A DNA stretch of 15,857 nt from Actinomycetes bacterium (GTDB lineage Bacteria > Actinomycetota > Actinomycetes > Actinomycetales > Beutenbergiaceae): contig JAJYRV010000015.1 of NCBI GenBank assembly GCA_021793935.1, positions 1 through 15,857 on the forward strand, written 5' to 3'. The notes below the pieces were generated by a model. It worked only from the letters and a program-made list of their open reading frames with translations, did no database searches and was not told the origin of the DNA. A program made the position numbers and the translations under genes. Positions within the stretch are counted from its first letter, which is position 1. The number at the start of each line of letters is the position of its first letter. Positions 157 through 15,380 of the stretch are shown one piece after another.

Positions 157-936
157 TCATTCCCCCGCGCGTTCATCGGCAGCGATTCGAGCGGCCTCGA
201 TCCGTTCCTGATCGAGGGCGGAGCGCCGTAGCGGGGGGATGATCTCCTCGTCGGGGGTGAGGATGACGAGGTCATTGTCCATGTGATCGGCCATCGCGTG
301 GACGGCGTCGATGAAGTCCCCTCGGCGAACGGCATCGGCGATGCGCTCGTGTTCGCTCTGCATCGTGGCGGCGTCGCCGGCGTGGGTGAGCCGCGCCTGA
401 TTCTCCGGGGTCAGGAGCCGCTCATTGATGCCGGCATACAGGGAGGCGAGCAGGCGGTTCTTCGCCGCGTCGAAGAGAAGTTGGTGAAACCGGGCGGCGA
501 GCTCCTCAGAGGTGGGCGCAGAGCCGTGTGCGGGGCAGTGCGCGCCTTGCAGCTGCGTATCGATCGCGGCCTCGAGGGCCGAAACGTCTTCAGCGCTCCG
601 GTGCAGAGCAGCCTGTTGGGCCGCCTCGATCTCCAGGGCTCGGCGGTAACTCAACAGTTCCTCGAGCGTGTAAGCGGTGAGGAACTCCGAGAGCACCGCG
701 CTCGTGGGGGCGCTGGAGCGTACGAAGGTTCCCCTGCCGGGGAGGGCCTCGAGCATGCCGATACTCGCCAGCGATCGGACGGCTTCGCGGATCGTGGATC
801 GGCCGACGCCGAGCATTTCCGATAGCTCGGGTTCGATGGGGATCCGGGAGCCAACCTTCCATTCGCCGGTCGTGATCTGGCGGCGCAGATACGCCAATGT
901 GCTCCGGGCGCGCTCGGTTCCACTGGCTGTTGACAT
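157..936 (-). CDS. GntR-family (FadR/FCD type) transcriptional regulator
   Basis: This 259-residue protein has the length and layout of FadR-subfamily GntR regulators. The N-terminal winged helix-turn-helix (about residues 10-75) contains the typical stretches GSRIPIEPELSEMLGVGRST and IREAVRSL, then the wing GRGTFVR. An all-helical FCD effector domain follows (about 90-225). FCD domains usually bind a metal through one Asp and three His. H151, H196 and H218 fit the three His, but the position four residues before H151 is Ala147 rather than Asp, so the metal site may be altered. The ATG at 936 follows TATAAT-GGGAGG. The gene lies 42 nt downstream of the importer lipoprotein on the same strand and has its own promoter. 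Its ligand and targets are unknown; self-regulation through the inverted repeat at 948-960 is an inference. Confidence 0.9.
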   Translation of the reverse strand: MSTASGTERARSTLAYLRRQITTGEWKVGSRIPIEPELSEMLGVGRSTIREAVRSLASIGMLEALPGRGTFVRSSAPTSAVLSEFLTAYTLEELLSYRRALEIEAAQQAALHRSAEDVSALEAAIDTQLQGAHCPAHGSAPTSEELAARFHQLLFDAAKNRLLASLYAGINERLLTPENQARLTHAGDAATMQSEHERIADAVRRGDFIDAVHAMADHMDNDLVILTPDEEIIPPLRRSALDQERIEAARIAADERAGE

Positions 937-978: not shown

Positions 979-1983
979 TCAGCCGGCGGGCGTGACTTCC
1001 TCGCCGAGCCAGGTCGCCAGTTCCTCGCGGCCCTCGATCGTCGCAGTGAAGCCCAGCGCCTGGAGCTTGCGGCCCTCCATGAGCAATACCCGCTCCTGGG
1101 AAACGGCGGGCAGGGCAGCTACCGCATCGTTCTCCAGCAGCGGCGCGAAGATCCGATCGCCGGATCCGTTCATGTCGACGAGCAAGATCGCGTCCGGTTC
1201 GGCGGCGATGACCTGTTCTGCAGAGATCGGGCCGCTGCGCTCGAAGCCGAGGTCCGCCCCAGCGTCCTCGGCGCCGGCCAAGCGGAGAACCTCGAGGGGG
1301 AACGCCTCCCCGGCGACGACGAACGGCTGGCCGGCTTGGTTACTGAGCGCGAGCACCTTCGGCCGGTCTGCTTCAGGGATGTCCTCTTCGACAAGTCCTT
1401 CAGTGAGAGAGGTGGTGAGGTCATCGGCTGCGTCTTCTAACCCGAGTGCCTCGCCGACGATGGCGATGTTCGAGGTGATGTCGTCCAGGTTCGCCCAGTG
1501 GTTGGGAAGGGTGAGCACGGGAATGCCGGCGCCCTCGAGCACCTTCGCCACCCCCTCTTCGAGCCCCCTGCGGGTGCTGAGCAGCACGAGGTCGGGATCC
1601 GCGGCGATCACGGCTTCCGCGTCAACGCTGCCCTCGGTGGGAGCGTGATTCTCAACGTCAGCCATCTCCTGGGCGTGGCTGGAGATGACCGGGTTGGCGA
1701 GCGATTCCTGCACGAGGACCAACCGGTCGGTCGCGCCCAGGCTCGCGACGAGTTCACCTGTTTCGTACGTCAACGCGGCGATCCGGGTGGGTTCGGCCTC
1801 GAGGGTCACCGTTGCCTCCGGTTCGCCCTGCCCGCCGGGAATATCCAGAGTGCGGGGGTAGGCGGATTCTTCTTCAGCGGGAGCGGATGCCGGCGTCTCC
1901 TGCGATGCATCGTCGGCGGGGGCAGACGAGCAACCGGCGAGCAGGAGCGCGGCAGCAGAAAAGCAGAGCAGGCGGAGGCGCAT
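979..1983 (-). CDS. Lipoprotein substrate-binding protein of an iron-complex/heme-type ABC importer
   Basis: This 334-residue protein begins with a lipoprotein signal peptide. A hydrophobic stretch ends in the lipobox LLAGC, with Cys18 as the lipidated residue, followed by a Ser/Ala/Glu-rich linker to about residue 45. The rest is a class-III (helical-backbone) periplasmic-binding fold with two similar lobes. The lobes include TRIAALTYETGELVASLG and, in the second lobe, AFPLEVLRLAG. Glu77 and Glu231 sit where this family has the acidic residues that dock onto permease arginines. An AAGGA ribosome site lies 4 nt before the ATG. It is the third gene of the permease-ATPase-binding protein operon, 16 nt after the ATPase. 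Cargo may be heme, a siderophore, cobalamin or a porphyrin. The usual HmuT heme-ligand context is not evident, so I do not assign hmuT. Confidence 0.88.
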   Translation of the reverse strand: MRLRLLCFSAAALLLAGCSSAPADDASQETPASAPAEEESAYPRTLDIPGGQGEPEATVTLEAEPTRIAALTYETGELVASLGATDRLVLVQESLANPVISSHAQEMADVENHAPTEGSVDAEAVIAADPDLVLLSTRRGLEEGVAKVLEGAGIPVLTLPNHWANLDDITSNIAIVGEALGLEDAADDLTTSLTEGLVEEDIPEADRPKVLALSNQAGQPFVVAGEAFPLEVLRLAGAEDAGADLGFERSGPISAEQVIAAEPDAILLVDMNGSGDRIFAPLLENDAVAALPAVSQERVLLMEGRKLQALGFTATIEGREELATWLGEEVTPAG

Positions 1984-1999
1984 ATGGTCCTTTCGGGTG

Positions 2000-2800
2000 T
2001 CAGGAGGCCGCCCGGCGCGGGCGGGTGAAGGTGGTGGCGGTGGGGCAGGAGACGCGCACGAGGCTGAGCGTGGGCGAGCCGCTCGGGGAATCGAACACTT
2101 CGGCGGTGACCCCGTAGACCTGCCGGATGAGACCGGTGGTCAGCACTTCGGTGGGCGTGCCGAACGTCGCCGCACCGCCGGCGATCACCGCAACGCGGTC
2201 GGCCCAACGCAGCGCTTGGGTGAGATCGTGCATAGTGACGACGACGATGTGGCCCGCGCTCGCGCGCTCCTTGAGTGCATGCAACACAGTGAGCTGGTGG
2301 CTCAGGTCGAGCGCCGAGGTCGGCTCGTCCAGGAGCATCACGGGGGCGTCCTGAGCGAGGCAGCGGGCGACTTGGACGAGCTGCCGCTCGCCTCCCGACA
2401 GGCGCGCGTAGCTGCGCTCGGCGAGGTGGGCGACGCCGAGCCGGTCCAATGCGCGCCTGCTGCGGGCCTCGGAGTCCGCCGTGTGCCCGGCGGCGCGGGC
2501 GCCGACGGCGACGACGTCACCTGCGCGCAGATCGTTCGGCGCGAACGTGTCCTGGCCGACGAACGAGACGACCTTGGCGAGCTGGCGGGGCCGAAGCTGG
2601 CCGAGCGCCGTCGTCCCATAGCGGGCCGTGCCGGAGCGTTCGATGCCGCGGCCGATGATGGCGCTGAGAAGGCTGGATTTTCCCGTGCCGTTGGGACCCA
2701 CGACCCCCACGAGCGTGCCGGGGGCGATCCGCTCGCTGATCGGGGCGAACAGGGGGCGGCCGCGATGGGCGACGAGTTGGTCGAGGACGAGGTCTGTCAT
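2000..2800 (-). CDS. ABC importer ATPase (FecE/HmuV/BtuD type)
   Basis: This 266-residue nucleotide-binding subunit powers uptake through the FecCD permease encoded just upstream. All catalytic motifs are intact: Walker A GPNGTGKS (35-42), Q-loop Gln83, signature LSGGERQ (134-140), Walker B VMLLDEP (154-160) and switch His191. The C-terminal tail of about 35 residues after VYGVTAEVF is typical in start but ends in an extra basic, low-complexity stretch. The ATG overlaps the permease stop codon by four bases (ATGA at 2797-2800), indicating translational coupling. The signature and the pairing with FecCD define the class. They do not separate heme from siderophore, cobalamin or porphyrin substrates. 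Confidence 0.93.
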   Translation of the reverse strand: MTDLVLDQLVAHRGRPLFAPISERIAPGTLVGVVGPNGTGKSSLLSAIIGRGIERSGTARYGTTALGQLRPRQLAKVVSFVGQDTFAPNDLRAGDVVAVGARAAGHTADSEARSRRALDRLGVAHLAERSYARLSGGERQLVQVARCLAQDAPVMLLDEPTSALDLSHQLTVLHALKERASAGHIVVVTMHDLTQALRWADRVAVIAGGAATFGTPTEVLTTGLIRQVYGVTAEVFDSPSGSPTLSLVRVSCPTATTFTRPRRAAS

Positions 2801-3873
2801 GCGGGCCGCCGCGAAAGCAGGAGGGCGAGGAATACCGGGGCGCCGATGACCGCGCAGACTGCTCCGGTCTGCACGACGACGTTCACCGAGGACGCGCGCG
2901 CGATCGTGTCGGCGATGACGAGGAAGAGCGCGCCGCCGGCGATGGATAGGGGCAGGAGGAGGGCGTGTTTGGCGCCGATGAGGAGCCGCACCGCGTGGGG
3001 GACCACGAGCCCGACGAAGCTAATGATGCCCGAGACCGCGACGGCAGCGCCCGTGACGAGGGAGGCGATGAGCAGCAGCAGCAGGCGGCTGCGGTGCACA
3101 TCGTAACCGGAGGTGTTTGCGACGTCGTCACCCAGGAGGAGCGCATCGAGCGCACCCACGCGCGAGCCGAGGATGAGCAGGCCCAGGAGAATCGGGCCGG
3201 CGGCGATGGCGGCGTGGGTCCAGGTTCGCAGTTCCAAATCGCCCGCGAGCCAGAACACGGCGCCGCGGGCGAGGGCGTCGTCGCGTGCGTTGGCGACGAG
3301 GATGGAGATGATCGCGCCCGCGAAGGCGTTGATGGAGACCCCGACGAGGATGATCGTGTAACTGCCCGTGCCCCGCTGGGTGTGCAGCACCACCTGAAGC
3401 AACAACGCAACGGCAAGGCTGCCCGCGAAGGCGGCGAACGGCACGCCCCACTGCAGGCTTCCGCTGAGGCCGAGGGTGATCCCGGCCACCGCGCCGACGG
3501 CGGCACCCGCGGAGACCCCGGTGACGCCCGGCTCGGCGAGCGGATTGCGGAAGACGGCTTGCATGACCACACCGACACCGGCGAGGGCGCCGCCGACGAG
3601 CATCGCCACGATGATGCGGGGCAGGCGGATCGACCAGACCACCGTGCTCACCTGATCGGCGGAGGGGGAGAAGATCGCTTCGAGCGCGGCGAGGGGGTCG
3701 AGGCGCAGGGTACCCAAGATCACACTGAGCGCCGCAGTCGCGATGAGTGCGCAAAGGATCCCGGCGGTGAGCCACCCCACCCGCCGACGGTGCGTGCGGG
3801 GCGCCGGGCTTGCGTCGGCGGCGGTTTCGGGCGGAGATCCGGGGGATCGAGGTCGGGTCGCGAGCTCGGTCAT
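2797..3873 (-). CDS. FecCD-family ABC importer permease (HmuU/BtuC-like)
   Basis: This 358-residue polytopic membrane protein, with about ten predicted helices, belongs to the FecCD/BtuC family. After a hydrophilic N-terminal tail of about 30 residues, the first helix starts near VGWLTAGILCALIATAAL. The family's cytoplasmic signature follows (RLPRIIVAMLVGGALAGVG, then QAVFRNPLAEPG). Near the end come GIISFVGLVVPHAVRLLIG and IGAPVFLALLL, the usual coupling and terminal elements. I chose the ATG at 3873 (MTELATRP) because AGGGAG lies 4-5 nt before it. An upstream in-frame ATG at 3957 would put the start inside the inverted repeat and add 28 Pro/Arg-rich residues. This is the first gene of the importer operon, transcribed away from the ferrochelatase gene. 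Confidence 0.92.
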   Translation of the reverse strand: MTELATRPRSPGSPPETAADASPAPRTHRRRVGWLTAGILCALIATAALSVILGTLRLDPLAALEAIFSPSADQVSTVVWSIRLPRIIVAMLVGGALAGVGVVMQAVFRNPLAEPGVTGVSAGAAVGAVAGITLGLSGSLQWGVPFAAFAGSLAVALLLQVVLHTQRGTGSYTIILVGVSINAFAGAIISILVANARDDALARGAVFWLAGDLELRTWTHAAIAAGPILLGLLILGSRVGALDALLLGDDVANTSGYDVHRSRLLLLLIASLVTGAAVAVSGIISFVGLVVPHAVRLLIGAKHALLLPLSIAGGALFLVIADTIARASSVNVVVQTGAVCAVIGAPVFLALLLSRRPA

Positions 3874-4028
3874 CACACTCCCTGGGCGTGGTCGGGGCTC
3901 GGCGGGTACGGGCTGGGGGCGCGTGCGCCCTGACCCAGCTATGCACAAAAAGTTCATCAGATCAAGACTTCATCTGATGTTAGCATGGCGATGTCCATGC
4001 CCTTGAACAGACAGGATTCTTTGCGCCC
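3874..4028. promoter_or_regulatory. Divergent control region between importer operon and cpfC
   Basis: This 155-nt non-coding stretch separates the importer operon (-) from cpfC-chdC (+). For the minus direction, TTGATC (3960-3965) with CATAGC 16 nt downstream (3938-3943) is a weak promoter candidate. For the plus direction, TAGCAT (3981-3986) is a possible -10 lying 42 nt before the cpfC ATG. Both overlap or flank the inverted repeat at 3955-3979. An AGGA (4013-4016) lies 12 nt before the cpfC ATG, so its ribosome site is weak. I see no convincing IdeR/DtxR box. Confidence 0.5.
3955..3979. promoter_or_regulatory. Perfect 8-bp inverted repeat, probable operator
   Basis: CATCAGAT (3955-3962) and ATCTGATG (3972-3979) are exact reverse complements separated by 9 bp, so the half-site centres are 17 bp apart, near one and a half helical turns. 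With the preceding bases the two halves also read as near-direct repeats, TTCATCAGAT (3953-3962) and TTCATCTGAT (3969-3978). It is the most AT-rich, most symmetrical element in the divergent region and overlaps the candidate -35 of the importer promoter. A dimeric repressor site serving both operons is the best reading. The protein that binds it is unknown. Confidence 0.55.
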
Positions 4029-5126
4029 ATGAACCGCAGGCTTGCTCCCTACGACGCGTTACTCGTGTGTTCTTTCGGGGGGCCGAACTCCTCAGAAGAT
4101 GTTGTCCCGTTCCTACGTAACGTCGTCCGCGGGAAGGGAGTCCCGGATGAACGCCTCGAAGAGGTGGGGGAACACTATTACGCTTTCGGCGGCAAGAGCC
4201 CGATCAACGAGCAGAACATCGCGTTGCGCCAGGCGCTCGCGGACGAGCTCGCGCGCCGCGGCCTCGATCTGCCGGTGATCTGGGGGAACCGGAATTGGCA
4301 CCCCTACACCGTCGATGCGCTGCGCGATGCCCACGCATTCGGTGCGCGACGCCTCCTCGTGATCCTCACCAGCGCCTATGCCTCCTACTCCAGCACCCGC
4401 CAGTACCGGGAGCACCTCGCCGCCAGCCTCGCCGACCTCGGCCCCGCCGGCGGGGAGCTGCAGCTAGATATCCTGCGCCCCTTCTTCAACGATCCCGGGT
4501 TCATCGGCGCGAACGTCGATGCGATCCGTGCGGCGGGCAGCGAGCTCGGCGGGCTTGATGGGGTGCACATCGCCTACATCACCCACTCCATTCCCACCAC
4601 GATGCAGCAAGCCTCGGAGGTGACCGGCCCCGGCTACCGAGAACAACACGAGGATGTCCGCGCCGTCATCGACGGCGACCTCCGGGCGGACGGGGCGAAC
4701 ATCACCTCCTCCCTCTCGTACTGCTCGCGGTCGGGAGCGCCGTCGACGCCGTGGCTCGAGCCGGACATCAACGATCACCTCGCCGATCTCGCGGCGGCGG
4801 GGCACCAGAAGGTGGTGCTCGCGCCGATCGGGTTCGTCTCCGATCACATGGAGGTCGTGTGGGATCTCGACACCGAAGCGGCCGAGACCGCGCGCGGACT
4901 GGGCTTCGAGGTCGCTCGTTCCGCGACCGTTGGCGTAGCCGAGCGGTTCATCACCGGACTGGTCGACCTCGTCGTCGAACGCGCTGCCCGGGAGCGGGGG
5001 GAGGCCCCGGCCGTGCACGTTCGTGGCGAACTGGGTGCCTTCCCCGATGAAGCGCCGCCCGGGAGCCACCGGATGCGCCACGGCGAAGTGACCGGGATCC
5101 CCGTCATCGCCGGCACCGCCGATTGA
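4029..5126 (+). CDS. cpfC: Coproporphyrin ferrochelatase (coproheme synthase)
   Basis: This 365-residue protein inserts Fe2+ into coproporphyrin III to make coproheme in the coproporphyrin-dependent pathway. The ferrochelatase fold is clear: ALLVCSFGGPNSSEDVVPFL at the start, THSIP with the metal-site His186, SRSGAPSTPWLEPDINDHL in the middle, and GFVSDHMEVVWDLD containing the paired acid Glu275. The protein has only two cysteines (C14 and C232) and none after residue 232. It therefore cannot form the four-Cys [2Fe-2S] cluster described for M. tuberculosis ferrochelatase, whose ligands lie mostly in the C-terminal tail. The neighbouring chdC places it in the coproporphyrin branch rather than the protoporphyrin branch. 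The ATG has only a distant AGGA (12 nt). It is divergent from the importer operon and 43 nt upstream of chdC. Confidence 0.95.
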   Translation: MNRRLAPYDALLVCSFGGPNSSEDVVPFLRNVVRGKGVPDERLEEVGEHYYAFGGKSPINEQNIALRQALADELARRGLDLPVIWGNRNWHPYTVDALRDAHAFGARRLLVILTSAYASYSSTRQYREHLAASLADLGPAGGELQLDILRPFFNDPGFIGANVDAIRAAGSELGGLDGVHIAYITHSIPTTMQQASEVTGPGYREQHEDVRAVIDGDLRADGANITSSLSYCSRSGAPSTPWLEPDINDHLADLAAAGHQKVVLAPIGFVSDHMEVVWDLDTEAAETARGLGFEVARSATVGVAERFITGLVDLVVERAARERGEAPAVHVRGELGAFPDEAPPGSHRMRHGEVTGIPVIAGTAD

Positions 5127-5169
5127 TCCCAGAGTTCCAACTAGTTTTTTCACCGATAAGGGAGTTTTC

Positions 5170-5850
5170 ATGACCGAACAAGACCACGACGTGCCCGCGG
5201 CCTACCTCATGTACAGCGTATTTCGCGCCAGCGAGCGCATCCCCGGCGAGGCGGACCGCGCGGAGCTCGCGCGCGACGTCGAGACCGCCCTCGCAAGCAT
5301 CGAGGGGCTGACGGTACGCGGCTGGTACGACGTGTCCGGTTTTCGCGCTGACGCCGACGTCATGGTCTGGTGGTGGGCGCCTCGGGCCGAAGCGCTCCAA
5401 GAGGCCTACCACCGGCTCCTGGCCAGCGCACTCGGCGAATACCTCACCCCGGTGTGGTCGCAGGTCGGGACGCACCGCCCAGCAGAGTTCAACCGGGCGC
5501 ACGTGCCCTCCTTCCTCCAGGGGACCGAACCCGGGAGCTACCTGTGCGTGTACCCGTTCGTGCGCAGCTACGACTGGTACTTGCTGCCCGAGGCGGAACG
5601 GGCGACGATGCTGCGCGATCACGGGATGGCTGCGCGGGGATTCGAAGACGTCCAGCCCAACACGGTTGCCTCGTTCGGTCTCGGCGATTACGAGTGGCTG
5701 CTGGGCTTCGAGGCCGACGGGCTCGACCGCATTGTGGATCTCATGCGCGCCCTGCGGAACACCGAAGCGCGCCGGCACGTGCGCGAAGAGATTCCGTTCT
5801 ACACCGGGCCGCGCGCGCCGCTCGCGGAGCTCGTTTCCCGGCTCCCGTAG
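5170..5850 (+). CDS. chdC: Coproheme decarboxylase (HemQ, chlorite dismutase-like family)
   Basis: This 226-residue enzyme decarboxylates two propionates of coproheme with peroxide to yield heme b, the last step after CpfC. The actinobacterial active-site set is present: distal His111 (in NRAHVPSF), catalytic Tyr128 (in YPFVRSYDWYLL) and proximal His151 (in RDHGMAARGF). The 17- and 23-residue spacings match His118, Tyr135 and His158 of the Corynebacterium diphtheriae enzyme, offset by seven. Length is normal for the short single-domain actinobacterial form. AAGGGAG lies about 5 nt before the ATG, a strong ribosome site. It follows cpfC by 43 nt and is probably co-transcribed. A hairpin at 5895-5931 may end the transcript. 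Confidence 0.96.
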   Translation: MTEQDHDVPAAYLMYSVFRASERIPGEADRAELARDVETALASIEGLTVRGWYDVSGFRADADVMVWWWAPRAEALQEAYHRLLASALGEYLTPVWSQVGTHRPAEFNRAHVPSFLQGTEPGSYLCVYPFVRSYDWYLLPEAERATMLRDHGMAARGFEDVQPNTVASFGLGDYEWLLGFEADGLDRIVDLMRALRNTEARRHVREEIPFYTGPRAPLAELVSRLP

Positions 5851-6047: not shown

Positions 6048-6878
6048 TTGGACGCGAGTGGGGCCACGCGGGAGATCTTACGGCTTGAGGGCGTGGGTTT
6101 CGTCCGCGATGGCCGGCACATCCTCACCGATATCAACCTCAGCGTCGAGGCGGGGCAGCGCTGGGCCCTCATCGGCCCGAACGGGGCGGGCAAGAGCACG
6201 ATTCTCAGCATGTGCGGCGCGGTGAACCACCCCTCTCAGGGCGGGGTGTATGTGCTTGGGCACAAGCTCGGGCGCGTGAATATCCGGGAGCTGCGTCAAT
6301 CGATCGGCCACGTCAACCCGCGCCATCCGCTTCGTTCCCCGCTGACCGCCCGCGAGGTGATCTACACCGGGGCCACCGGAACCACCGAGCTGATGATGCG
6401 GTGGGAGCCTGATGAGGAGACGGTCGAGCGCGCCGAGCGCCTCATCGAGATGCTCGGTCTGGGTTACCTCGGGGAGGTGACCTGGGAAAAGATGTCGCAA
6501 GGGGAACGCGGGCGCACTCTCATCGCTCGCTCGCTCCTGCCGGGCCCTGCGCTGCTGCTTCTCGATGAGCCCTCGACCGGCCTCGATGTTGCCGCCCGCG
6601 AGCAGTTCCTCGCGACGATCGACGATCTGCACGGCGCCCACCCTGACCTTGCGACGGTGCTCGTCACCCACCACCTGGAAGAGCTCCCGGAGACGACGAC
6701 CCACGCGATGCTCATTAGAGGCGGGCGCGTGCACGCCGCCGGTCCTGCTGATCAAGTGCTGACGACAACGCTGGTTTCAGAGTGTTTTTCGTACCCGATC
6801 GACATCGAGCACCGCGACGGGCGCTGGCACGCTCGGGCGGCCCGGGGGAGCCTGGGGTCCTCGCCCGCGCCCGCCTAG
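6048..6878 (+). CDS. Stand-alone ABC transporter ATPase (ModF/YlmA-like)
   Basis: This 276-residue protein has one ATP-binding cassette. Walker A is GPNGAGKS (43-50), signature MSQGERGRT (149-157), Walker B ALLLLDEPSTGLD (168-180), and switch His at 208-209. The Q-loop position reads IGHVNPRH with no Gln. This resembles ModF/YlmA-type ATPases that also depart from Gln there, and those often have no linked permease. None is linked here either. I chose TTG at 6048 as start because GGAGG (6036-6040) lies seven bases upstream and no in-frame ATG is nearby. The last 30 residues are Ala/Arg/Pro-rich and outside the domain. It follows chdC in the same direction, so a role in metal or heme handling is possible but not shown by the sequence. 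Confidence 0.88.
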   Translation: MDASGATREILRLEGVGFVRDGRHILTDINLSVEAGQRWALIGPNGAGKSTILSMCGAVNHPSQGGVYVLGHKLGRVNIRELRQSIGHVNPRHPLRSPLTAREVIYTGATGTTELMMRWEPDEETVERAERLIEMLGLGYLGEVTWEKMSQGERGRTLIARSLLPGPALLLLDEPSTGLDVAAREQFLATIDDLHGAHPDLATVLVTHHLEELPETTTHAMLIRGGRVHAAGPADQVLTTTLVSECFSYPIDIEHRDGRWHARAARGSLGSSPAPA

Positions 6879-6929
6879 AACCGGGCGGGTGCGGGCGGCG
6901 TGACCAGGCGCGCGTCCGCAGCGGGTTGC

Positions 6930-6950
6930 AAAAACGTAAAAACGTATTAG
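6930..6950 (+). promoter_or_regulatory. Tandem 8-bp repeat and -10 before the ArsR-like gene
   Basis: AAAAACGT occurs twice in tandem (6930-6937, 6938-6945), an AT-rich island in GC-rich DNA. It runs into TATTAG (6945-6950), a -10-like hexamer nine bases before the GTG at 6960. No SD-like sequence precedes that GTG, so the mRNA would have no leader or one of only a few bases. The tandem repeat occupies the spacer and upstream part of the promoter and could be an operator. Confidence 0.45.
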
Positions 6951-6959
6951 CGTAGCGGT

Positions 6960-7499
6960 GTGGCTAATTCTCCTGACACCAGCAGGCTCGAGGCGCTCGA
7001 GCGGCGCGTAGAGGCCCTCGAGGAACGCCTTCAGCGGGATGGCGACGCGAGCCTCTCGCGCAAGACCGCTCCGGGCGACGACGCCTTATGGGCGCTCCAT
7101 GAGCTTCAACACCGCCGCTCCCAGCGCGAGGAGACCGCGGATGGGGCGGTGCTGTTCACCGGGTCGCTGGACCTTCCCACCGGCGAGAGCGTTTCGTGGC
7201 AAGAGGGGGCTGGAACGAGAGCGCTGCTCGAGGCCGAGTGGTCGGACTTCGCTGCCTCGCTCGCGGCACTGGGGCATCCCGTTCGATTGGAAATTCTGAA
7301 ACACATCCTCCTGGGCACGCGCGGCACGGCAGAGCTCGCCGAGATCGACGGGCTAGGTACGACGGGCCAACTTCATCATCACCTGCGCGAGCTCCGCGGA
7401 GCGGGATGGGTGAAGCAGTCCGGGCGGGGCCGGTACGAAGTCGCCGCGGCCCGCGTGGTTCCACTCCTCATCACCCTCGTGGCGGCAGGTGAACGATGA
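6960..7499 (+). CDS. ArsR-like winged-helix regulator with N-terminal coiled coil
   Basis: This 179-residue protein starts with GTG. Residues 8-30 (LEALERRVEALEERLQ) form a heptad-like coiled coil that probably aids dimerisation. Residues about 92-175 carry an ArsR-type winged HTH: SLAALGHPVRLEILKHILLG, then TAELAEIDGLGTTGQLHHHL for the recognition region, ELRGAGWVKQSGRGRYEV for the wing. No metal-binding Cys pair typical of metal-sensing ArsR proteins is present; the protein has no Cys at all. The stop overlaps the next start by four bases (ATGA, 7496-7499), so regulator and peptidase-like protein are translationally coupled. That suggests the regulator controls or responds to its partner. 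The ligand is unknown. Confidence 0.82.
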   Translation: MANSPDTSRLEALERRVEALEERLQRDGDASLSRKTAPGDDALWALHELQHRRSQREETADGAVLFTGSLDLPTGESVSWQEGAGTRALLEAEWSDFAASLAALGHPVRLEILKHILLGTRGTAELAEIDGLGTTGQLHHHLRELRGAGWVKQSGRGRYEVAAARVVPLLITLVAAGER

Positions 7500-8368
7500 A
7501 GAAGTACGTCATCGCCACGTATAGGTGCCGGATCTACGTGTTATTCGGGGCGTTCGCGGTTCTCCTTCTCGCCGCGGCAACACGTGGGTATTTCCCTGCC
7601 GTCGAAAGGATCGCGCCAGCCCTCTCCCTGGCGGTACTCGCGGCGATCGTTATGTGTCTGCTGCTCACCGCGGTAGGCCCACGCCTCCTTGATCCGATCG
7701 AGCCCCGGGTGGTTGCGCCTCCCGTGTCGGGGGAGTGGAGCGCGGTCAACAGCCCCGCGTCGAAGGTCCCGAGCCATGGGACCCGCTTCTACGGTCAGGC
7801 CTACGCAATCGATCTCGTTGCCGAAGGCCCTGGCGAGCGCCCCAGTTTCGGGGCGGGGCCCGCGATGCGCCGCCCCGAGGATTATCCGGCGTTCGGGGCT
7901 CCCGTCTACGCGATGGTCAGTGGGACAGTGGTTGCGGTTGTCGATCGGCGGCGCGATCACCGAGCCCGGTCGAACGGGCTCAGCGTGCTCTATCTCCTCC
8001 TGGAGGGGATGGTTCGAGAGGTCGCCGGCATGAGCTTCCTCCTGGGAAACTACGTGACCATCGACCATGGGGATGGAACGTTCAGCCTTGTTGCCCACCT
8101 CAAACGAGGCTCGGTGAAGGTGAAGGTGGGCAGCGAGATCGAGGCGGGTGATCTCATCGCCGAATGCGGCAACTCCGGAAACAGTAGCGAACCCCATGTG
8201 CATGCACAGCTAATGGACCGCGCATCACCGCGGAGGGCGCAAGGGGTGCCGATGTCCTTTACTGGAATCCTCGACGCGGCAGGTTCGCCGATCGAACTGC
8301 CGGCGAACGGGCAAACCATGATCAGTGTCTCTGCTCAACACGCTTCCCGCGAGGGGCGCCGTCGTTGA
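7496..8368 (+). CDS. Membrane-anchored M23-family metallopeptidase-like protein
   Basis: This 290-residue protein has two hydrophobic segments (about 13-31 and 39-60) and then an M23/LytM domain (about 90-260). Domain marks are YGQAYAIDLV with Asp106, FGAPVYAMVSGTVVAVVD, VAHLKRGSVKVKVGSEIEAG with His201, and CGNSGNSSEPHVHAQLMD with His234 and His236. M23 enzymes hydrolyse peptide cross-links in peptidoglycan using zinc held by H (of HxxxD), D, and the second H of HxH. Here the residue four before Asp106 is Ala102; the nearest upstream His is His94. The first zinc ligand is therefore displaced or missing. Positive charges at the N-terminus predict it inside; if both helices cross the membrane, the domain would also be inside, which is odd for a wall hydrolase. 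It is coupled to the ArsR-like regulator. Confidence 0.8.
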   Translation: MKKYVIATYRCRIYVLFGAFAVLLLAAATRGYFPAVERIAPALSLAVLAAIVMCLLLTAVGPRLLDPIEPRVVAPPVSGEWSAVNSPASKVPSHGTRFYGQAYAIDLVAEGPGERPSFGAGPAMRRPEDYPAFGAPVYAMVSGTVVAVVDRRRDHRARSNGLSVLYLLLEGMVREVAGMSFLLGNYVTIDHGDGTFSLVAHLKRGSVKVKVGSEIEAGDLIAECGNSGNSSEPHVHAQLMDRASPRRAQGVPMSFTGILDAAGSPIELPANGQTMISVSAQHASREGRRR

Positions 8369-8379
8369 TCGCCCGGGTA

Positions 8380-9135
8380 CTACTTATCGAGTTGTAGCCG
8401 ATGCCAGGCGAGCGCCGTCGCGGCGGAGAAAATGATGGGGACGATGAGCACCAGGGCGAGCTGACCTGGATGGACGGAGCCCGGCACGAGCGCCCAGAGG
8501 GCAGGGGCGGCGATCGGCACCCACGGCGCTGCGTGCGGCGCGGCGATCGCAGCTATCTGAGCGGTGATGAGGATGAGGATCGTGACGGCGATTCCCGGCA
8601 GCAGGCCTCTACCCAATGTTGCCGCCCACGCCGCGGGCGTGGCGAGCGCCGCCGTCGACACGAGGAGGGCGAAAAGTCGGACCTGGCCAGCCCCCGCGCC
8701 GTCGCCGAGGGGGAAGCCGAGCGCGAGGCCAGCGGCTGAGGTCGCCGCGATGAGGGCGCAGGCGGTCGCGCCCGCCCACAGGAGGAAGACGCAGAGTTTG
8801 GCAAGGGCGATAGATCTCCGCGTGATGGGTTGAGCGAAGAGGCCGGTGACCGTGTTGTCGGCGAATTCGCGCCCGAACAGCCAGCTCAGCCCGACCCCAA
8901 AGGCGAGGAGAGCGCCGGCGGCGCTCACTTGCGTCGTGATACCGGTGAGAAGCTCGAGGCTGGAAGCGCCCCCGAGCGGACCGAGCTGGGCAAGGATCTG
9001 TTCGTTGCCTGCCCGCGCTGCGGCGCTGAGGGCTCCCGCGAGTGTAGGAATCCCGAACGCGAGGAGAACGCTCGTGACCCACAGCGTGCGGGAGGCCGCT
9101 GCTTTGCGGAATTCCACCACGATAGCCGTGCGCAT
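8380..9135 (-). CDS. ABC-2 type exporter permease
   Basis: This 251-residue membrane protein has about six hydrophobic segments. It starts with the amphipathic [17 protein letters not shown] and carries WLFGREFADNTVTGLFAQP followed by ITRRSIALAK. That pattern of a cytoplasmic acidic/aromatic loop and coupling helix is characteristic of ABC-2 permeases linked to antibiotic, lantibiotic or lipid export. It would pair as a homodimer with the ATPase encoded immediately upstream. The ATPase stop and permease ATG share one base (TGATG), a coupled arrangement. It ends 11 nt from the convergent M23 gene. Substrate unknown. Confidence 0.85.
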   Translation of the reverse strand: MRTAIVVEFRKAAASRTLWVTSVLLAFGIPTLAGALSAAARAGNEQILAQLGPLGGASSLELLTGITTQVSAAGALLAFGVGLSWLFGREFADNTVTGLFAQPITRRSIALAKLCVFLLWAGATACALIAATSAAGLALGFPLGDGAGAGQVRLFALLVSTAALATPAAWAATLGRGLLPGIAVTILILITAQIAAIAAPHAAPWVPIAAPALWALVPGSVHPGQLALVLIVPIIFSAATALAWHRLQLDK

Positions 9136-9875
9136 CAGGACCGAGCCCCATTGCGCAGGTCGGTGCGCAGATCGTCGGCGTGCACGGCGTTGAAGAACCG
9201 GCGCTCCAGATCGGGCTCGGTGGGATCGAGCTCGCCGAGGAGCCGCCCGTAGTTGAGCAGCGAGATGTTATCGGCAATGCGCGCGACTTCATCCAGATGA
9301 TGGCTGGAAACGAGGATGGCCGCCCCCGCATCGGCGCGGCGCCGCAGACTGTTGCGGAGCAGGATAACGCCGGCCGGGTCGAGGGCGTTCGTCGGTTCAT
9401 CCAGCACGATCAGCGTGGGGTCGTGGGCGAGGGCCGCCGCCAGTCCCAGGCGTTGCCGGTTGCCCTGGGAGAGTCGGCGCGCCGGAGTCCTGAGGTGCTT
9501 TTCCAGCTCGAACTCGCGGGCGCTCGCGGCCACGGCCTCACCCAAATGCGTACCGGAGAGCCCTTTCAGCCGCGCTGCGATCGAAAGATTCGTGCGCGTG
9601 TCCAGTTCGGGATACGCCACGGGCTGCTCCACCAGGTGCCCCACGCGGGCCCACCCGGCTCGCACTCGCGGCAGGGGGACGCCCGCGATCTTTATCGACC
9701 CGCGCGCGGGGCGGAGCATCCCCAGGAGCAGGCGCATGAGCGTGGTCTTCCCCGATCCGTTCAGGCCTACGAGCGCGTGAATCTCGCCCCGGCCCACCTC
9801 GAGGTCGAGGTCGAAGACGCCCGCCGTAGGGGAGAACTCCCGCGTAGCCCCCTCAACACGAAGCACCTCAGTCAT
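9135..9875 (-). CDS. ABC exporter ATPase
   Basis: This 246-residue cassette protein belongs to the ABC-2 (CcmA/NatA-like) exporter group. Walker A is GLNGSGKT (37-44), Q-loop Gln84, signature LSQGNRQR (135-142) with the Gln/Asn variation usual in this group, Walker B LIVLDEP (155-161), followed by TNALDPAG, and switch His192. It drives the permease at 8380-9135. Its start codon lies inside the 3' end of the TetR gene (8-nt overlap), so the three genes form one coupled operon controlled from the TetR promoter. Weak SD before the ATG is consistent with coupling. Confidence 0.92.
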
Positions 9876-10440
9876 TTTCGCTCGCGGCCTCCTCCCGGGC
9901 TTCCAGCACCCGCAATGCGAGGTCGAGTGCCGATGAGAGCGGCTCCTGCTCTGACTCGGCCCACTCGATCAACGCCGTCGACAGTGCAGCGATGACGGCA
10001 GCAGCGGCTGCGCGGGCGACGGTGGGTCCCGCGCCGTCGGCAGCGAGTTGGGCGCTGATCGCCGCCTCCGACGCGCCGGTGGTGCCCACGCTCTTCGCGC
10101 GTAGATGCGCAGAGCGACGGATAATCCGCAGCCGACGGCGTACGTTCCCGAGCGCCTCATCCGGGATCCGGTCAAGAGCGCTACGCACTCCACGGGCCGC
10201 CCGGATCAGGGCGGGCCCCGGCGGTTGGGCGGCGATGGCGCTCGCGATGGCCGGGTCGTAGGGGTCGGCGAGGATGGCCTGTTCCTTGGTTGCGAAATGG
10301 CGGAAGAACGTCATTTCGCTCACGCCGGCCGCCTCGGCGATCTGGGCGACCGTCGTGTTCTCAAAGCCGCGGGCTTCGAATAGTTCGAGCGCGCACGTGG
10401 CGAGCCGCGCGGTCGTGCGTTCTCGACGAGAGGTCCCCAT
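9868..10440 (-). CDS. TetR-family repressor of the adjacent ABC exporter
   Basis: This 190-residue TetR/AcrR protein has its HTH at about residues 10-52 ([20 protein letters not shown] then [20 protein letters not shown]), with the rest an all-helical ligand and dimer domain. It leads the operon TetR-ATPase-permease, overlapping the ATPase gene by eight bases. The ATG at 10440 follows directly on the promoter/palindrome at 10448-10477 with no SD, so the mRNA is likely leaderless. Self-repression with relief by an exporter substrate is the usual logic of such cassettes, and the operator position supports it. The ligand is unknown. Confidence 0.92.
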
Positions 10441-10914: not shown

Positions 10915-11667
10915 ATGGTTGATCTCTTCTCACCCGATGGCATCGAACGCATGCTCTGCGTCGTGGCCCACCCTGACGATATGGAGTATGGGGCCTCGGC
11001 CGCCGTTGCGGAATGGACCGCTCGCGGAGTTGAGGTCGCCTACCTCCTGCTCACCGCCGGCGAGGCAGGGATTCGCGACATGTACCCGGCGGAAGTAGGG
11101 CCCTTGCGCGCCCAGGAACAGCGCAAAGCGTGCGAGATCGTCGGGGTAGAGCACCTTACCATCCTGGACCTGCCCGACGGCATGCTCGAGCCATCGATGG
11201 AGGTGCGTTCCTGCATCGCCGGGGAGATCCGCCGCTTTCGACCGCAGGCGGTCATGTGCACGAGCTGGGAACTCGAGGTTCCCTGGGGCCTGAACCACGC
11301 CGATCACCGCGCAGCAGGACTCGCCACCGTCGACGCGATCCGCGATGCGGACAACCCGTGGATCTTTCCCCAACAGCTCTCCGAAGGGCTCACGGCGTGG
11401 TCGACGAGGTGGCTCCTCGTCACGGGCAGCGAACCTACTCACGCGATCGAGCTCAGCCGGGAATCGGTGGAGAAGGGGGTCGCCTCGTTGGAGGCGCACG
11501 AGGTGTATCTGCGGGCGCTTCCGGAGCACGTGCCGCCGCGAGAAATTGTCGAGCAGGCGGCGACTTCCGGGGCTGCGGCGCTACGGGAGACCCGTTCCGC
11601 CCCGGACGACAACGGCATCCCCACGCTCGAGCATGCGCTGGGCGTGCGGGCGATCAAGATGGGCTGA
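10915..11667 (+). CDS. PIG-L/LmbE-family zinc deacetylase
   Basis: This 250-residue protein has the PIG-L (LmbE, MshB) fold. Its metal and catalytic motif is VVAHPDDMEYG, with His19, Asp21 and Asp22. The third zinc ligand lies in the GLNHADHRAAG segment (His128 and His131). These enzymes remove acetyl from N-acetylglucosaminyl groups, as in mycothiol (MshB, Mca) and GPI-precursor synthesis. The distance between the two motifs is shorter than I would expect for MshB. Length and N-terminal layout fit the general family rather than a certain MshB, so no symbol is given. It converges on the MarR gene with an 8-nt gap. It has a possible leaderless promoter shared with the divergent small membrane protein. 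The substrate is undetermined. Confidence 0.87.
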   Translation: MVDLFSPDGIERMLCVVAHPDDMEYGASAAVAEWTARGVEVAYLLLTAGEAGIRDMYPAEVGPLRAQEQRKACEIVGVEHLTILDLPDGMLEPSMEVRSCIAGEIRRFRPQAVMCTSWELEVPWGLNHADHRAAGLATVDAIRDADNPWIFPQQLSEGLTAWSTRWLLVTGSEPTHAIELSRESVEKGVASLEAHEVYLRALPEHVPPREIVEQAATSGAAALRETRSAPDDNGIPTLEHALGVRAIKMG

Positions 11668-12185: not shown

Positions 12186-12203
12186 AGATTAGTCCAAAAA
12201 TCT
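12186..12203 (-). promoter_or_regulatory. Inverted repeat and -10 before the MarR gene
   Basis: AGATT (12186-12190) and AATCT (12199-12203) form a 5-bp inverted repeat with an 8-bp spacer, in an AT-rich patch. On the minus strand TAATCT lies six bases before the MarR ATG, within one arm. No SD is present, so a leaderless transcript and self-regulation are plausible. The right arm overlaps the TAG stop of the permease gene. With only five bases per arm, chance cannot be excluded. Confidence 0.35.
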
Positions 12204-13395
12204 ACCCGCGCAGCGCCTCGGTGAGCTTCATCCGGCCGCCGGTATTGAGTACGGCGCGGGAGTACACGCGCCCGCCGATCCAAATCATGAGCGGAATCGT
12301 CACTAAGCACAGCGCGACGGCGAGAACGATCTCCCAGGTGGAAACGGCGTCGAAACCCATGCGAATCGGCATCATGAACGGGGAGAAGAACGGCACCTGC
12401 GAGAGCACTTTCGTCGCGAGGGAATCGGGCGCGTTGGGGATGAGGTAAATCCCAAGATAGAAGGGGATCATCATCCCGAAAATAAGCGGGGTGGTGACCG
12501 CCCCAGCGTCCTCCTGCCGGGAGACGAGGGAGGCGAGCCCGCCGAACAGCGATACGTAGATGGCGAACCCGAGGAAGAACCAGCCGAGCAGGCTCAACAC
12601 GGAGATCCCGACGTTGATATCCCCAGCGCTGAACAGCCCCGCGGCCACCGCGCTGAGTGCGCCCGCCGCGGCGAAGAGCACCACCTGGATGAGCGCCATG
12701 ATGCCGATGCCCAGCACCTTGCCGGCGAGTAGCTGGCCCGGCCGGATCGTGGCGAGCAGGATCTCCACTACACGTGAGGCCTTCTCCTCGATCACTCCCA
12801 TAATGATGAGGGAGGCCGATTGGATGAGCGCGAAGAACAGCAACGAGATGGAGACGAACGCGGTGACGATCTTCACGCCGTCCAGGTCGCGCGCGGAGGT
12901 GACGGGGTTGATGTCCACGACGTCGACGCTGATGCTCGCGAGGTCCGACTGCACCTGGGAGAGATCCCCGCCGGCGGTCTCGATCGCGTCGAACAACACG
13001 TAGTCGGCAGCGGCATCGCTGCCCAGGGAGATGAGCGCCCCGTCGGGATCGCCGTCGAACCTGAATACCGGGGCGGTGGGACTGCCCGCGATGTACATGT
13101 CGATCTCGTCATCGATGAGTTCGGCGTCGGCGCCCGCTTCCGCGAGCGTGCGGACCTCCAGTTCGTCCCCGGATTCCGCCGCCTGCTGTTGCATGAACGG
13201 CCCGAGCGGTTCGGTCTCCTCCGAGACCCCGATCGTCGTCACCGATGCGGCGGACTCGCCCGTGAAATACGCCGCTGCCTGAACACCGCCGGCGATGAGG
13301 ACGATGAAGATGATTGTGGAGATGATGGACGCTTTCGCGAATAGGCGAGCTTTCAGCTCCCGCTTCGCGACGAGCCAGATCGGTGAGGTACTCAC
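12202..13395 (-). CDS. ABC-2 exporter permease, NatB/YhaP type
   Basis: This 397-residue protein has one N-terminal helix (about 20-43), a large extracytoplasmic domain (about 45-175) and then about five helices. This is the arrangement of NatB/YhaP ABC-2 permeases. The cytoplasmic signature GVIEEKASRVVEILLATIRP, followed by GQLLAGKVLGIGIMALIQ, is typical. The C-terminal MIWIGGRVYSRAVLNTGGRM followed by KLTEALRG is also characteristic of the family. NatAB exports Na+ in Bacillus; related pairs export drugs or unknown cargo, so the substrate is open. Its start overlaps the ATPase stop by four bases (13392-13395). Confidence 0.93.
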   Translation of the reverse strand: MSTSPIWLVAKRELKARLFAKASIISTIIFIVLIAGGVQAAAYFTGESAASVTTIGVSEETEPLGPFMQQQAAESGDELEVRTLAEAGADAELIDDEIDMYIAGSPTAPVFRFDGDPDGALISLGSDAAADYVLFDAIETAGGDLSQVQSDLASISVDVVDINPVTSARDLDGVKIVTAFVSISLLFFALIQSASLIIMGVIEEKASRVVEILLATIRPGQLLAGKVLGIGIMALIQVVLFAAAGALSAVAAGLFSAGDINVGISVLSLLGWFFLGFAIYVSLFGGLASLVSRQEDAGAVTTPLIFGMMIPFYLGIYLIPNAPDSLATKVLSQVPFFSPFMMPIRMGFDAVSTWEIVLAVALCLVTIPLMIWIGGRVYSRAVLNTGGRMKLTEALRG

Positions 13396-14327
13396 TTCTC
13401 ATCCCCCTCTTCCTCTTCGCCGCCGGGTTCGGTGACGACGTGGCGGAATAGATCCGAGAGCGGTGGTTGCACGGCCGCGAATTCCCGCACCGGGGAATGC
13501 TCGAGCGCGGCGCGCAGCAGCTGTTGGGCAGCCTCGTGCGCACCCGTGGGTAACTGCACCCGCGCGTCCGGGCCATCGGTGAGGACGACGGCGCCTGGGA
13601 TGCTCGCCTGCGCGGCCCACGTCGGCGGCGCGGCGGGGGCGTCGACGCGCCACGTGGTCGTGTCGGTGTGACGTAGTTCGGCGATGGTGCCGAGGGCTAC
13701 CATTTGGCCCGCGCGGACGATCCCCACCCGATCGCATAGACGCTCCACGAGATCGAGTTGATGGGAGGAGAAAATGACTGGTACTCCCGCCTCCGCGCGT
13801 TCCCGCAGCACGTTGCTCATCACGTCAACAGCGACGGGATCGAGCCCGGAGAACGGTTCATCGAGGATGAGCAGGTCCGGGTCGTGCACGAGCGCGGAGG
13901 CGAGTTGCACGCGTTGCTGGTTCCCGAGAGATAGCTTTTGCAGTTCGTCCTCCCGGCGGGAGGCGACGCCCAGCACCTCGGTCCAATGCTCCATCGCCGC
14001 GGTGGCTGCCGTGGACGTGAGGCCGTGCAACTCGGCGAGGTAGACGAGCTGGTCGCTCACCTTCATTTTCGGATATAGGCCCCGTTCCTCGGGCATGTAC
14101 CCCACTCGGCGCCGCAGGTTGAGGTCCATCGGCCGGCCGCCGAAGGAAACCGTCCCAGAGTCAGCGGTGAGAACCCCGAGGGCGATGCGCATCGTCGTCG
14201 TCTTGCCCGCCCCGTTGGAGCCGACGAACCCGAACAGCTCCCCTTCGTTCACCGTGAATGTCATATCGGTGAGTGCACGGAGTGACCCGTATGTTTTGTT
14301 CAGGCCCGATATTTCCAGGTCTGGCAT
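13392..14327 (-). CDS. ABC exporter ATPase, NatA/YhaQ type
   Basis: This 311-residue protein has Walker A GSNGAGKT (36-43), signature LSLGNQQR (132-139), Walker B LLILDEP (152-158) and switch His189. The Q-loop region reads GYMPEERGLYPKMKV (76-90), the variant with Glu in place of Gln that marks the NatA/YhaQ branch. After the cassette (about residue 225) comes a C-terminal domain of about 85 residues ending in an acidic Glu-rich tail. It is coupled to the permease by a four-base overlap. It lies 87 nt downstream of the TetR gene, probably with its own promoter. Confidence 0.94.
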   Translation of the reverse strand: MPDLEISGLNKTYGSLRALTDMTFTVNEGELFGFVGSNGAGKTTTMRIALGVLTADSGTVSFGGRPMDLNLRRRVGYMPEERGLYPKMKVSDQLVYLAELHGLTSTAATAAMEHWTEVLGVASRREDELQKLSLGNQQRVQLASALVHDPDLLILDEPFSGLDPVAVDVMSNVLRERAEAGVPVIFSSHQLDLVERLCDRVGIVRAGQMVALGTIAELRHTDTTTWRVDAPAAPPTWAAQASIPGAVVLTDGPDARVQLPTGAHEAAQQLLRAALEHSPVREFAAVQPPLSDLFRHVVTEPGGEEEEGDEK

Positions 14328-14414
14328 CCGCTCGCCCCCGTTGGTCCTTCGTGATCTCGCCCTAATACGTGAGTCCCCACACTAGTGCATAACCTGCTCT
14401 CGGAAGCAAGTTGA
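14328..14414 (-). promoter_or_regulatory. Gap between TetR gene and NatA-like operon; possible control site
   Basis: This 87-nt AT-richer gap contains the 8-bp palindrome CACTAGTG (14380-14387) and, on the minus strand, TTGCTT (14405-14410) followed 19 bases later by TAGTGT (14380-14385). The palindrome overlaps this possible -10. A second candidate is TATTAG (14361-14366). No single promoter is convincing, but the length and base composition suggest the exporter pair can be transcribed separately from the TetR gene. Confidence 0.35.
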
Positions 14415-15056
14415 TTATTCTTGGCGAGATTTCCAGGTGCGCCCGAGCGTCGGCTCGGGTTCCATTCCCCGCAGGCCGTTCCAGGCAAGATTGACGAGGT
14501 GAGCGGCGACGATTTCCTTCGACGGCGATCGTTCTTCCAGCCACCACTGGCCGGTGAGGGCGATCATTCCCACGAGCATCTGCGCATACAGCGGCGCCGC
14601 CTCCACGTCCATTCCCCGGCGGTCGAACTGCTCGGCGAGGAGGTGCTCGACTTGCGTGGCGACGTCGCCGATGAGGGAGGAGAACGTGCCGGTGGCTTGG
14701 GCGACCGGGGAGTCCCGCACGAGGATCCGGAAGCCATCGGTGTTCTCATCGATGTAATCCAGGAGTGCGAGCGCGGCACCTTCGACCGTGATCCGCGGGT
14801 GCCGCCCCGTAGTCAGCGCCGTGGTGAGGGCGGTGAGGAGGGTCTCCACCTCGCGGTCGACGATGACGGCGTACAGCCCCTCCTTACCCCCGAAGTGCTC
14901 GTACACGACCGGCTTGGATACTTCCGCGCGGGCGGCGATCTCCTCCACGGAGGTGCCATCGAACCCCTTCTCGGCGAAGAGCGTGCGCCCGATCGTGAGG
15001 AGCTGTTCGCGGCGCTGTTGGCCCGTCATCCGTGGGCGGCGGGGGGTAGAAGTCAC
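14415..15056 (-). CDS. TetR-family transcriptional regulator
   Basis: With a GTG start at 15056 the protein is 213 residues and begins (V/M)TSTPRRPRMTGQQRREQLL, a basic arm common in actinobacterial TetR proteins. The HTH follows (IGRTLFAEKGFDGTSVEEIA then ARAEVSKPVVYEHFGGKEGL). Longer in-frame starts exist at 15074 (ATG) and 15107 (GTG), none with a ribosome site. CATGAT (15063-15068) is six bases before the GTG at 15056, so I prefer a leaderless start there. It lies upstream of the NatAB-like exporter on the same strand and on the other side of tRNA-Gln from glmU. M. tuberculosis also has a TetR gene (Rv1019) next to glmU, so it may be a conserved local regulator rather than only an exporter repressor. 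Confidence 0.88.
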   Translation of the reverse strand: MTSTPRRPRMTGQQRREQLLTIGRTLFAEKGFDGTSVEEIAARAEVSKPVVYEHFGGKEGLYAVIVDREVETLLTALTTALTTGRHPRITVEGAALALLDYIDENTDGFRILVRDSPVAQATGTFSSLIGDVATQVEHLLAEQFDRRGMDVEAAPLYAQMLVGMIALTGQWWLEERSPSKEIVAAHLVNLAWNGLRGMEPEPTLGRTWKSRQE

Positions 15057-15255
15057 GTTTCTATCATGCCGCATCGGGCTCTCGCCCGCGGGTGTGGGTG
15101 ATGTCACGGCGCCCTGACCGGTGCCAGAGTCCGTGCCGGAGCTAGGTGGGTTTTTCCTTGGAACAGCGCGGTTTCTCTGCTTCGGCCCGGAAGCGAGATG
15201 CTGCGGGATCGCCGAACCGGCGCTCTGGGCATGTCCGCGGCGGCGCCTGGGAAAT

Positions 15256-15308: not shown

Positions 15309-15380
15309 TCCGCCCTGGTGTAATGGCAGCACGACAGCCTTTGGAGCTGTGAAGTCTAGGTTCGAATCCTGGGGGCGGAG
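15309..15380 (+). tRNA. tRNA-Gln (anticodon UUG)
   Basis: The 72-nt cloverleaf can be drawn by eye. The acceptor stem is TCCGCCC (15309-15315) with GGGCGGA (15373-15379) and discriminator G15380. The anticodon arm is ACAGC-CTTTGGA-GCTGT with anticodon TTG, reading CAA. The T arm is CTAGG-TTCGAAT-CCTGG with one G-T pair. The CCA end is not encoded. It lies just upstream of glmU. Confidence 0.96.

Follow-up and report, generated by a model that had tools for sequence, protein, structure and literature searches.

Results

The 15,857-nucleotide stretch of actinobacterial DNA analysed here (contig JAJYRV010000015.1, referred to as the window) encodes a complete FecCD-type ATP-binding cassette (ABC) importer, divergent from cpfC and chdC, whose products turn coproporphyrin III into heme. 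We consider that this module is probably a tetrapyrrole salvage unit that imports a coproporphyrin III-type porphyrin. It recurs in Georgenia, Leucobacter and Canibacter, where it repeatedly co-occurs with missing upstream heme genes and is accompanied by conserved motifs and sites. From these features we infer its substrate, direction of transport and regulator.

The importer genes lie on the minus strand and encode a lipoprotein substrate-binding protein (979..1983; PF01497, 97.5 bits; lipobox Cys18 conserved; structural model with a mean predicted local distance difference test score, pLDDT, of 91.4), an ABC importer ATPase (2000..2800; PF00005) and a FecCD-type permease (2797..3873, within an open reading frame extending to 3957; PF01032, 275.7 bits). 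All three matches are above the family cut-offs and the genes lie together, as in type II (FecCD-type) ABC importers. On the plus strand follow cpfC (4029..5126), for a coproporphyrin ferrochelatase of the ferrochelatase family (PF00762, 237.1 bits against a cut-off of 27), and chdC (5170..5850), for coproheme decarboxylase, the actinobacterial HemQ (PF06778; NF042928, HemQ_actino, 332.8 bits against a cut-off of 235), so that the last two coproporphyrin-dependent heme steps are both encoded in the window. CpfC scores 399 bits against NF000689, slightly under the cut-off of 408, and carries the motifs THSIP and DHMEV, while ChdC carries YPFVR and RDHG. Next to the lipoprotein gene, a candidate regulator of the module is encoded on the minus strand, a GntR-family protein with an FCD domain (157..936; PF00392, PF07729) that is 80-81% identical to Georgenia-type relatives. 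Open reading frames and family matches thus agree with the initial annotation, which had described a complete importer divergent from cpfC and chdC. They also agree with its remark that earlier heme genes are not found in the window, as family scans of 19 larger open reading frames returned no heme gene other than cpfC and chdC. This absence from 15.9 kb carries little weight, however, because intact Leucobacter hold the earlier genes in a separate cluster, arranged in one such genome (L131) as hemA|hemE-cgoX-hemC-hemD-hemB-hemL.

Among the 80 relative loci kept for comparison, the window CpfC is most similar to that of a Georgenia metagenome-assembled genome (MAG; L010, 75% identity), followed by those of G. 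satyanarayanai and Oceanitalea stevensii (73-74%), Leucobacter (64-70%), Canibacter (68%) and three other Georgenia (59-60%). Judged by these identities, the window looks Georgenia-related rather than Leucobacter. An identical lipoprotein is present in a JGI metagenome cluster, and a 61% identical binding protein (P0034) is assigned to a Phototrophicaceae MAG, possibly through mis-binning of an actinobacterial contig. The importer adjoins cpfC in 17 of the 80 loci, and on this count a chance layout was rejected. Genomes were searched for 37 of the loci (L001-L035, L046 and L058), comprising 17 with the importer, 19 without it at the cpfC locus, and L014, whose contig begins at cpfC. The two assemblies of G. 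satyanarayanai differ in this respect, strain P7 (L003) having the importer and CGMCC 1.10826 (L001) lacking it there; in P7, a GAF/MCP signalling gene (L003:7297-8949, minus strand) lies between permease and cpfC. In the importer-less loci L022, L035, L046 and L058, the hem cluster directly adjoins cpfC, and L121, L122, L124, L126 and L128 are further importer-bearing loci.

The search for upstream genes in relatives covered HemA, HemB, HemC, HemE and CgoX. HemB, HemC and HemE are jointly absent from six of the 37 genomes (G010, G024, G026, G030, G031 and G032), all of them importer-bearing, and all three proteins are present in each of the 19 genomes whose cpfC locus lacks the importer. In G024, G026, G030, G031 and G032, the importer adjoins cpfC-chdC. 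HemA, searched in 14 genomes, gave weak partial matches or none in G024, G026, G030, G031, G032 and G064, the last of which came from a survey of 150 genomes of the family of G004. A survey of 200 genomes of the family of G003, in which the permease was found at E 1e-75 or better in three, yielded G291. HemE was not found in G064 or G291, and G291, which has the module, is one contig of 3,454,625 bases, so that an assembly gap is no ready explanation for its missing HemE. Of these seven importer-bearing genomes without the upstream genes tested (G024, G026, G030, G031, G032, G064 and G291), six retain both cpfC and chdC. In the seventh, G064 (1.4 Mb), genes for GntR, lipoprotein, ATPase and permease and two palindromic sites of the kind described below (two mismatches each) are followed by chdC, and cpfC was not found anywhere in the genome. 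The sole late heme gene found there, chdC, acts on coproheme, and importer plus chdC without cpfC is the combination that coproheme uptake would predict. At this locus (L155:9490-11390), site and chdC are still separated by a short stretch that includes the former start region.

Three further candidates were dismissed or set aside as clean losses. The full-length HemA of G010 ends 52 bases from the end of a 4,955-base contig, and G204 has HemA, HemE and part of CgoX. G014, without HemB and HemC, has two partial HemE copies, two hemA-hemE fragments and no permease, and may be an exception to the importer-loss pattern. Among the genomes examined, no importer-less one was clearly without upstream genes while keeping cpfC, G014 being fragmentary. 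In two Leucobacter genomes of 2.0-2.2 Mb (G202 and G205), neither the permease (at E 1e-80) nor CpfC or HemB was found, and HemA was not found at full length; these are either incomplete MAGs or full heme auxotrophs. Matches to CgoX in the six genomes without HemB, HemC and HemE reach only E 2e-5 to 3e-10, the listed ones being short and N-terminal; as the CgoX profile TIGR00562 exceeds its cut-off in only five of the 37 genomes, these matches are weak evidence of CgoX loss.

The retained enzymes appear to be maintained. Between a loss genome (L031) and a relative with hemB and no importer (L028), the ratio of nonsynonymous to synonymous substitution rates (dN/dS) is about 0.07 for CpfC and 0.06 for ChdC, and between G291 and L003 about 0.25 and 0.27, these being simple pairwise counts over a span that includes time before the upstream loss. 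The CpfC motifs THSIP and DHMEV and the ChdC motifs YPFVR and R[DE]HG, to which catalytic roles are ascribed, are present in the loss genomes holding the respective gene. The module is also carried by Candidatus Leucobacter sulfamidivorax GP (L032), where the matches to GntR and to the end of CpfC are both split in two (5105-5798 and 9984-10100), which may reflect sequencing error or damage.

How closely importer and loss are associated was assessed in Leucobacter (the genus of G004, 54 genomes), in which the permease was found at E 1e-80 in 19 genomes and HemB in 46. HemB was not found in 5 of the 19 genomes with the importer and in 3 of the 35 without it (p 0.09); with HemA also considered, loss stands at 4 of 19 versus 2 of 35 (p 0.11), and loss with cpfC retained, a category chosen post hoc, at 4 of 19 versus 0 of 35 (p 0.012). 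On a tree built from cpfC/chdC with 48 rows, of which 44 have a known state (the window row, WIN, as well as L010, L014 and L159 being excluded), loss is seen in 7 of 24 importer-bearing and none of 20 importer-less rows (p 0.009, ignoring kinship). Loss requires six changes on this tree, five of them forced by supported branches. Corrected for kinship, the data resolve into five independent pairs, on average 3.2 concordant, none opposite and 1.8 without difference.

The permease probably starts at 3873 (MTELATRPR...) rather than at 3957, because the upstream ATG falls inside a palindrome and because Georgenia relatives begin MTQLAS or MTQLDS at the same place. This start leaves a 155-base control region common to permease and cpfC. 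Within it lies the palindrome (3955..3979, no strand assigned), which is operator-like, 25 bp long and near-perfect, with 12-nucleotide arms, 92% complementary, one nucleotide apart. All 29 relatives scanned have sites like ACATCNGATGT, allowing one mismatch at most, immediately ahead of cpfC, and in Leucobacter these are often paired with a 14-bp spacing. By eye, the site was not seen before cpfC in L007, and in G291 and G064 the sites have at least two mismatches. Sites of this kind also occur at hemA|hemE in all six Leucobacter clusters fetched and in L022, and in L006 only at two mismatches. Of base shuffles of 22 upstream stretches, 0.4% contain a site at no more than one mismatch; within the window alone, the site is not significant (1 match versus 0.28 expected). 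A GntR gene adjoins cpfC in many importer-less loci and is found on the far side of the lipoprotein gene in many loci that have the importer. Going by site and gene order, a common regulator, perhaps the GntR protein, may act on the cpfC and hemA|hemE sites. GntR does not occur in the accessible text of a review on regulation of this heme pathway (PMC10991733).

The binding protein was compared with proteins of known ligand. Its nearest folds include heme-binding proteins, and its best fold and profile matches include ShuT, RhuT, HmuT, PhuT and BhuT; the VIA-align match list showed no tilt for or against siderophore proteins. The N-lobe tyrosine of the GYxR motif is presumably the heme-iron ligand in several solved heme-binding proteins. 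At this position the window has Thr116, and 79 homologs have threonine (40), serine (23), valine (14), asparagine (1) or alanine (1), none having tyrosine. A second-lobe histidine, which we take to be a ligand in HmuT, BhuT and HutB and absent from RhuT, corresponds to Gln216 in the window and to glutamine in all 79 homologs. Both HmuTUV-type heme ligands are therefore replaced, the histidine being the softer mark as RhuT lacks it too.

The rest of the window holds genes of other kinds. Downstream of chdC (6048-8368) lie genes for an ABC ATPase, a weakly ArsR-like protein and an M23 peptidase, followed by two ABC-2 type exporter sets (8380-10440 and 12202-15107), each with a TetR-family regulator gene. 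A PIG-L family deacetylase, weakly like BshB1, is encoded at 10915-11667, and a tRNA gene (15309-15380) was the sole match of an Rfam scan of the window.

Discussion

In the proposed mechanism, the lipoprotein would capture a coproporphyrin III-type porphyrin, whether metal-free, zinc-bound or as coproheme, that was released by neighbours or had leaked from the cell itself, and the FecCD permease and ATPase would carry it inward. CpfC would then insert iron where needed and ChdC would convert coproheme to heme. Import would be linked to these last two steps by the palindrome that separates permease and cpfC, to which GntR may bind. For cells with a full pathway, the importer would serve as a route of recapture and supplement. 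It could also make the upstream genes dispensable, and some lineages may lose them and then depend on outside coproporphyrin. Loss would proceed stepwise, from full pathway plus importer through importer plus CpfC-ChdC to importer plus ChdC alone, living on coproheme. We lean, if only somewhat, towards the more specific proposal of an ABC importer dedicated to coproporphyrin III/coproheme, whose heme-type binding protein has given up the usual iron ligands and which allows such stepwise loss.

The initial annotation had suggested that the importer could bring in coproporphyrin or coproheme for CpfC and ChdC to finish, and had pointed to Leucobacter strains reported to depend on coproporphyrins from neighbours. 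The suggestion of salvage gains from the upstream losses with cpfC-chdC kept, from the importer and chdC alone in G064, from the site shared with hemA|hemE and from the absence of the usual iron ligands in a binding protein of heme type. This support is partial: the window looks Georgenia-related rather than Leucobacter, and hemB is retained in 14 of the 19 importer-bearing Leucobacter. This retention is one of several points that weigh against salvage. After correction for kinship, the association of importer and loss is not significant (five pairs, p 0.125-0.5); the pattern recurs and always points the same way, yet counted over independent events it does not reach significance. The first candidates, G010, G204 and G014, fell away as clear losses, several of the remaining loss genomes (G026, G030, G031 and G032) are MAGs, and HemE is the only upstream gene tested in G291. 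Five hem clusters of Georgenia type (L129, L130, L035, L046 and L058) were scanned without finding the palindromic site, and structural matches of the binding protein to siderophore-binding proteins score nearly as high as those to heme-binding proteins. According to the accessible text of the respective articles, the dependence of strain GP was not abolished by heme or coproporphyrins (PMC6868719), and attempts to culture Leucobacter HA-1 were not helped by zincmethylphyrins or coproporphyrins (PMC12285269).

The main rival is uptake of finished heme, in which the pairing with cpfC-chdC would reflect co-regulation of uptake and synthesis and the loss genomes would use imported heme. The fold and profile matches to ShuT, RhuT, HmuT, PhuT and BhuT speak for it, as does the ATPase, which scores best against a heme ATPase model, at 199.9 bits, under the cut-off of 261. 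However, import of finished heme should leave cpfC and chdC free to decay, contrary to the retention of both in six loss genomes and of chdC in G064, which heme uptake leaves unexplained. The positions of the iron ligands are occupied by Thr/Ser/Val and Gln, with the reservation that RhuT itself lacks the second-lobe histidine, and for strain GP a separate hmuTUV next to efeUOB is described in the accessible text (PMC6868719). Taken together, we regard heme uptake as unlikely. An importer of a siderophore or other iron complex that supplies iron to CpfC would accord with the siderophore-type structural matches; we consider it quite improbable, as the importer persists in G064, where CpfC is missing, the control region is similar to the one at hemA|hemE, and upstream gene loss is unexplained by iron supply.

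The losses themselves could be assembly gaps, the hem block having been lost with one missing contig and the importer being unrelated. HemA does lie at contig ends in G010, G204 and G014, and four of the loss genomes are MAGs, as mentioned. Against this stand the single 3.45 Mb contig of G291 without HemE, the cultured strain Canibacter oris DSM 27064 (G024), and strain GP, for which the loss of hemABCE is also stated by its authors (PMC6868719, accessible text), all of which make assembly gaps a very improbable explanation.

If coproporphyrin salvage is true, some bacteria regarded as heme auxotrophs would instead be auxotrophic for coproporphyrin, which neighbours supply, and a gene set that predicts life on a neighbour's coproporphyrin would help to explain stubborn cultures. 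It would also illustrate how a heme pathway may be lost from its early steps onward while the last ones persist. In the open-access literature searched, which leaves most subscription journals outside, no named coproporphyrin importer surfaced.

Among known systems, the heme importers HmuTUV, BhuTUV, ShuT and RhuT share the same binding-protein, FecCD permease and ATPase families and provide the nearest solved folds. Unlike HmuTUV-type importers, the window family has Thr/Ser/Val in place of the GYxR tyrosine and Gln in place of the second-lobe histidine, is paired with cpfC-chdC, and is kept where upstream heme genes are missing. Haemophilus influenzae uses protoporphyrin IX via a retained ferrochelatase, likewise a case of a late porphyrin salvaged by a retained terminal enzyme; it differs in the branch of the pathway, and we know of no dedicated importer gene beside its ferrochelatase. 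Strain GP resembles the salvage case in its hemABCE loss and in carrying the module, which we have not seen mentioned in the accessible text (PMC6868719), and differs in that neither coproporphyrins nor heme rescued it. Leucobacter sp. ASN212, in contrast, cited as an uncultured Leucobacter, is described as coproporphyrin-dependent for growth, with the porphyrins coming from Sphingopyxis (Bhuiyan et al., as cited in PMC6868719, PMC12285269 and PMC11139205). The accessible parts of these citing texts do not name an importer. As in the salvage proposed here, ASN212 reportedly uses a neighbour's coproporphyrins, in its case as a growth factor.
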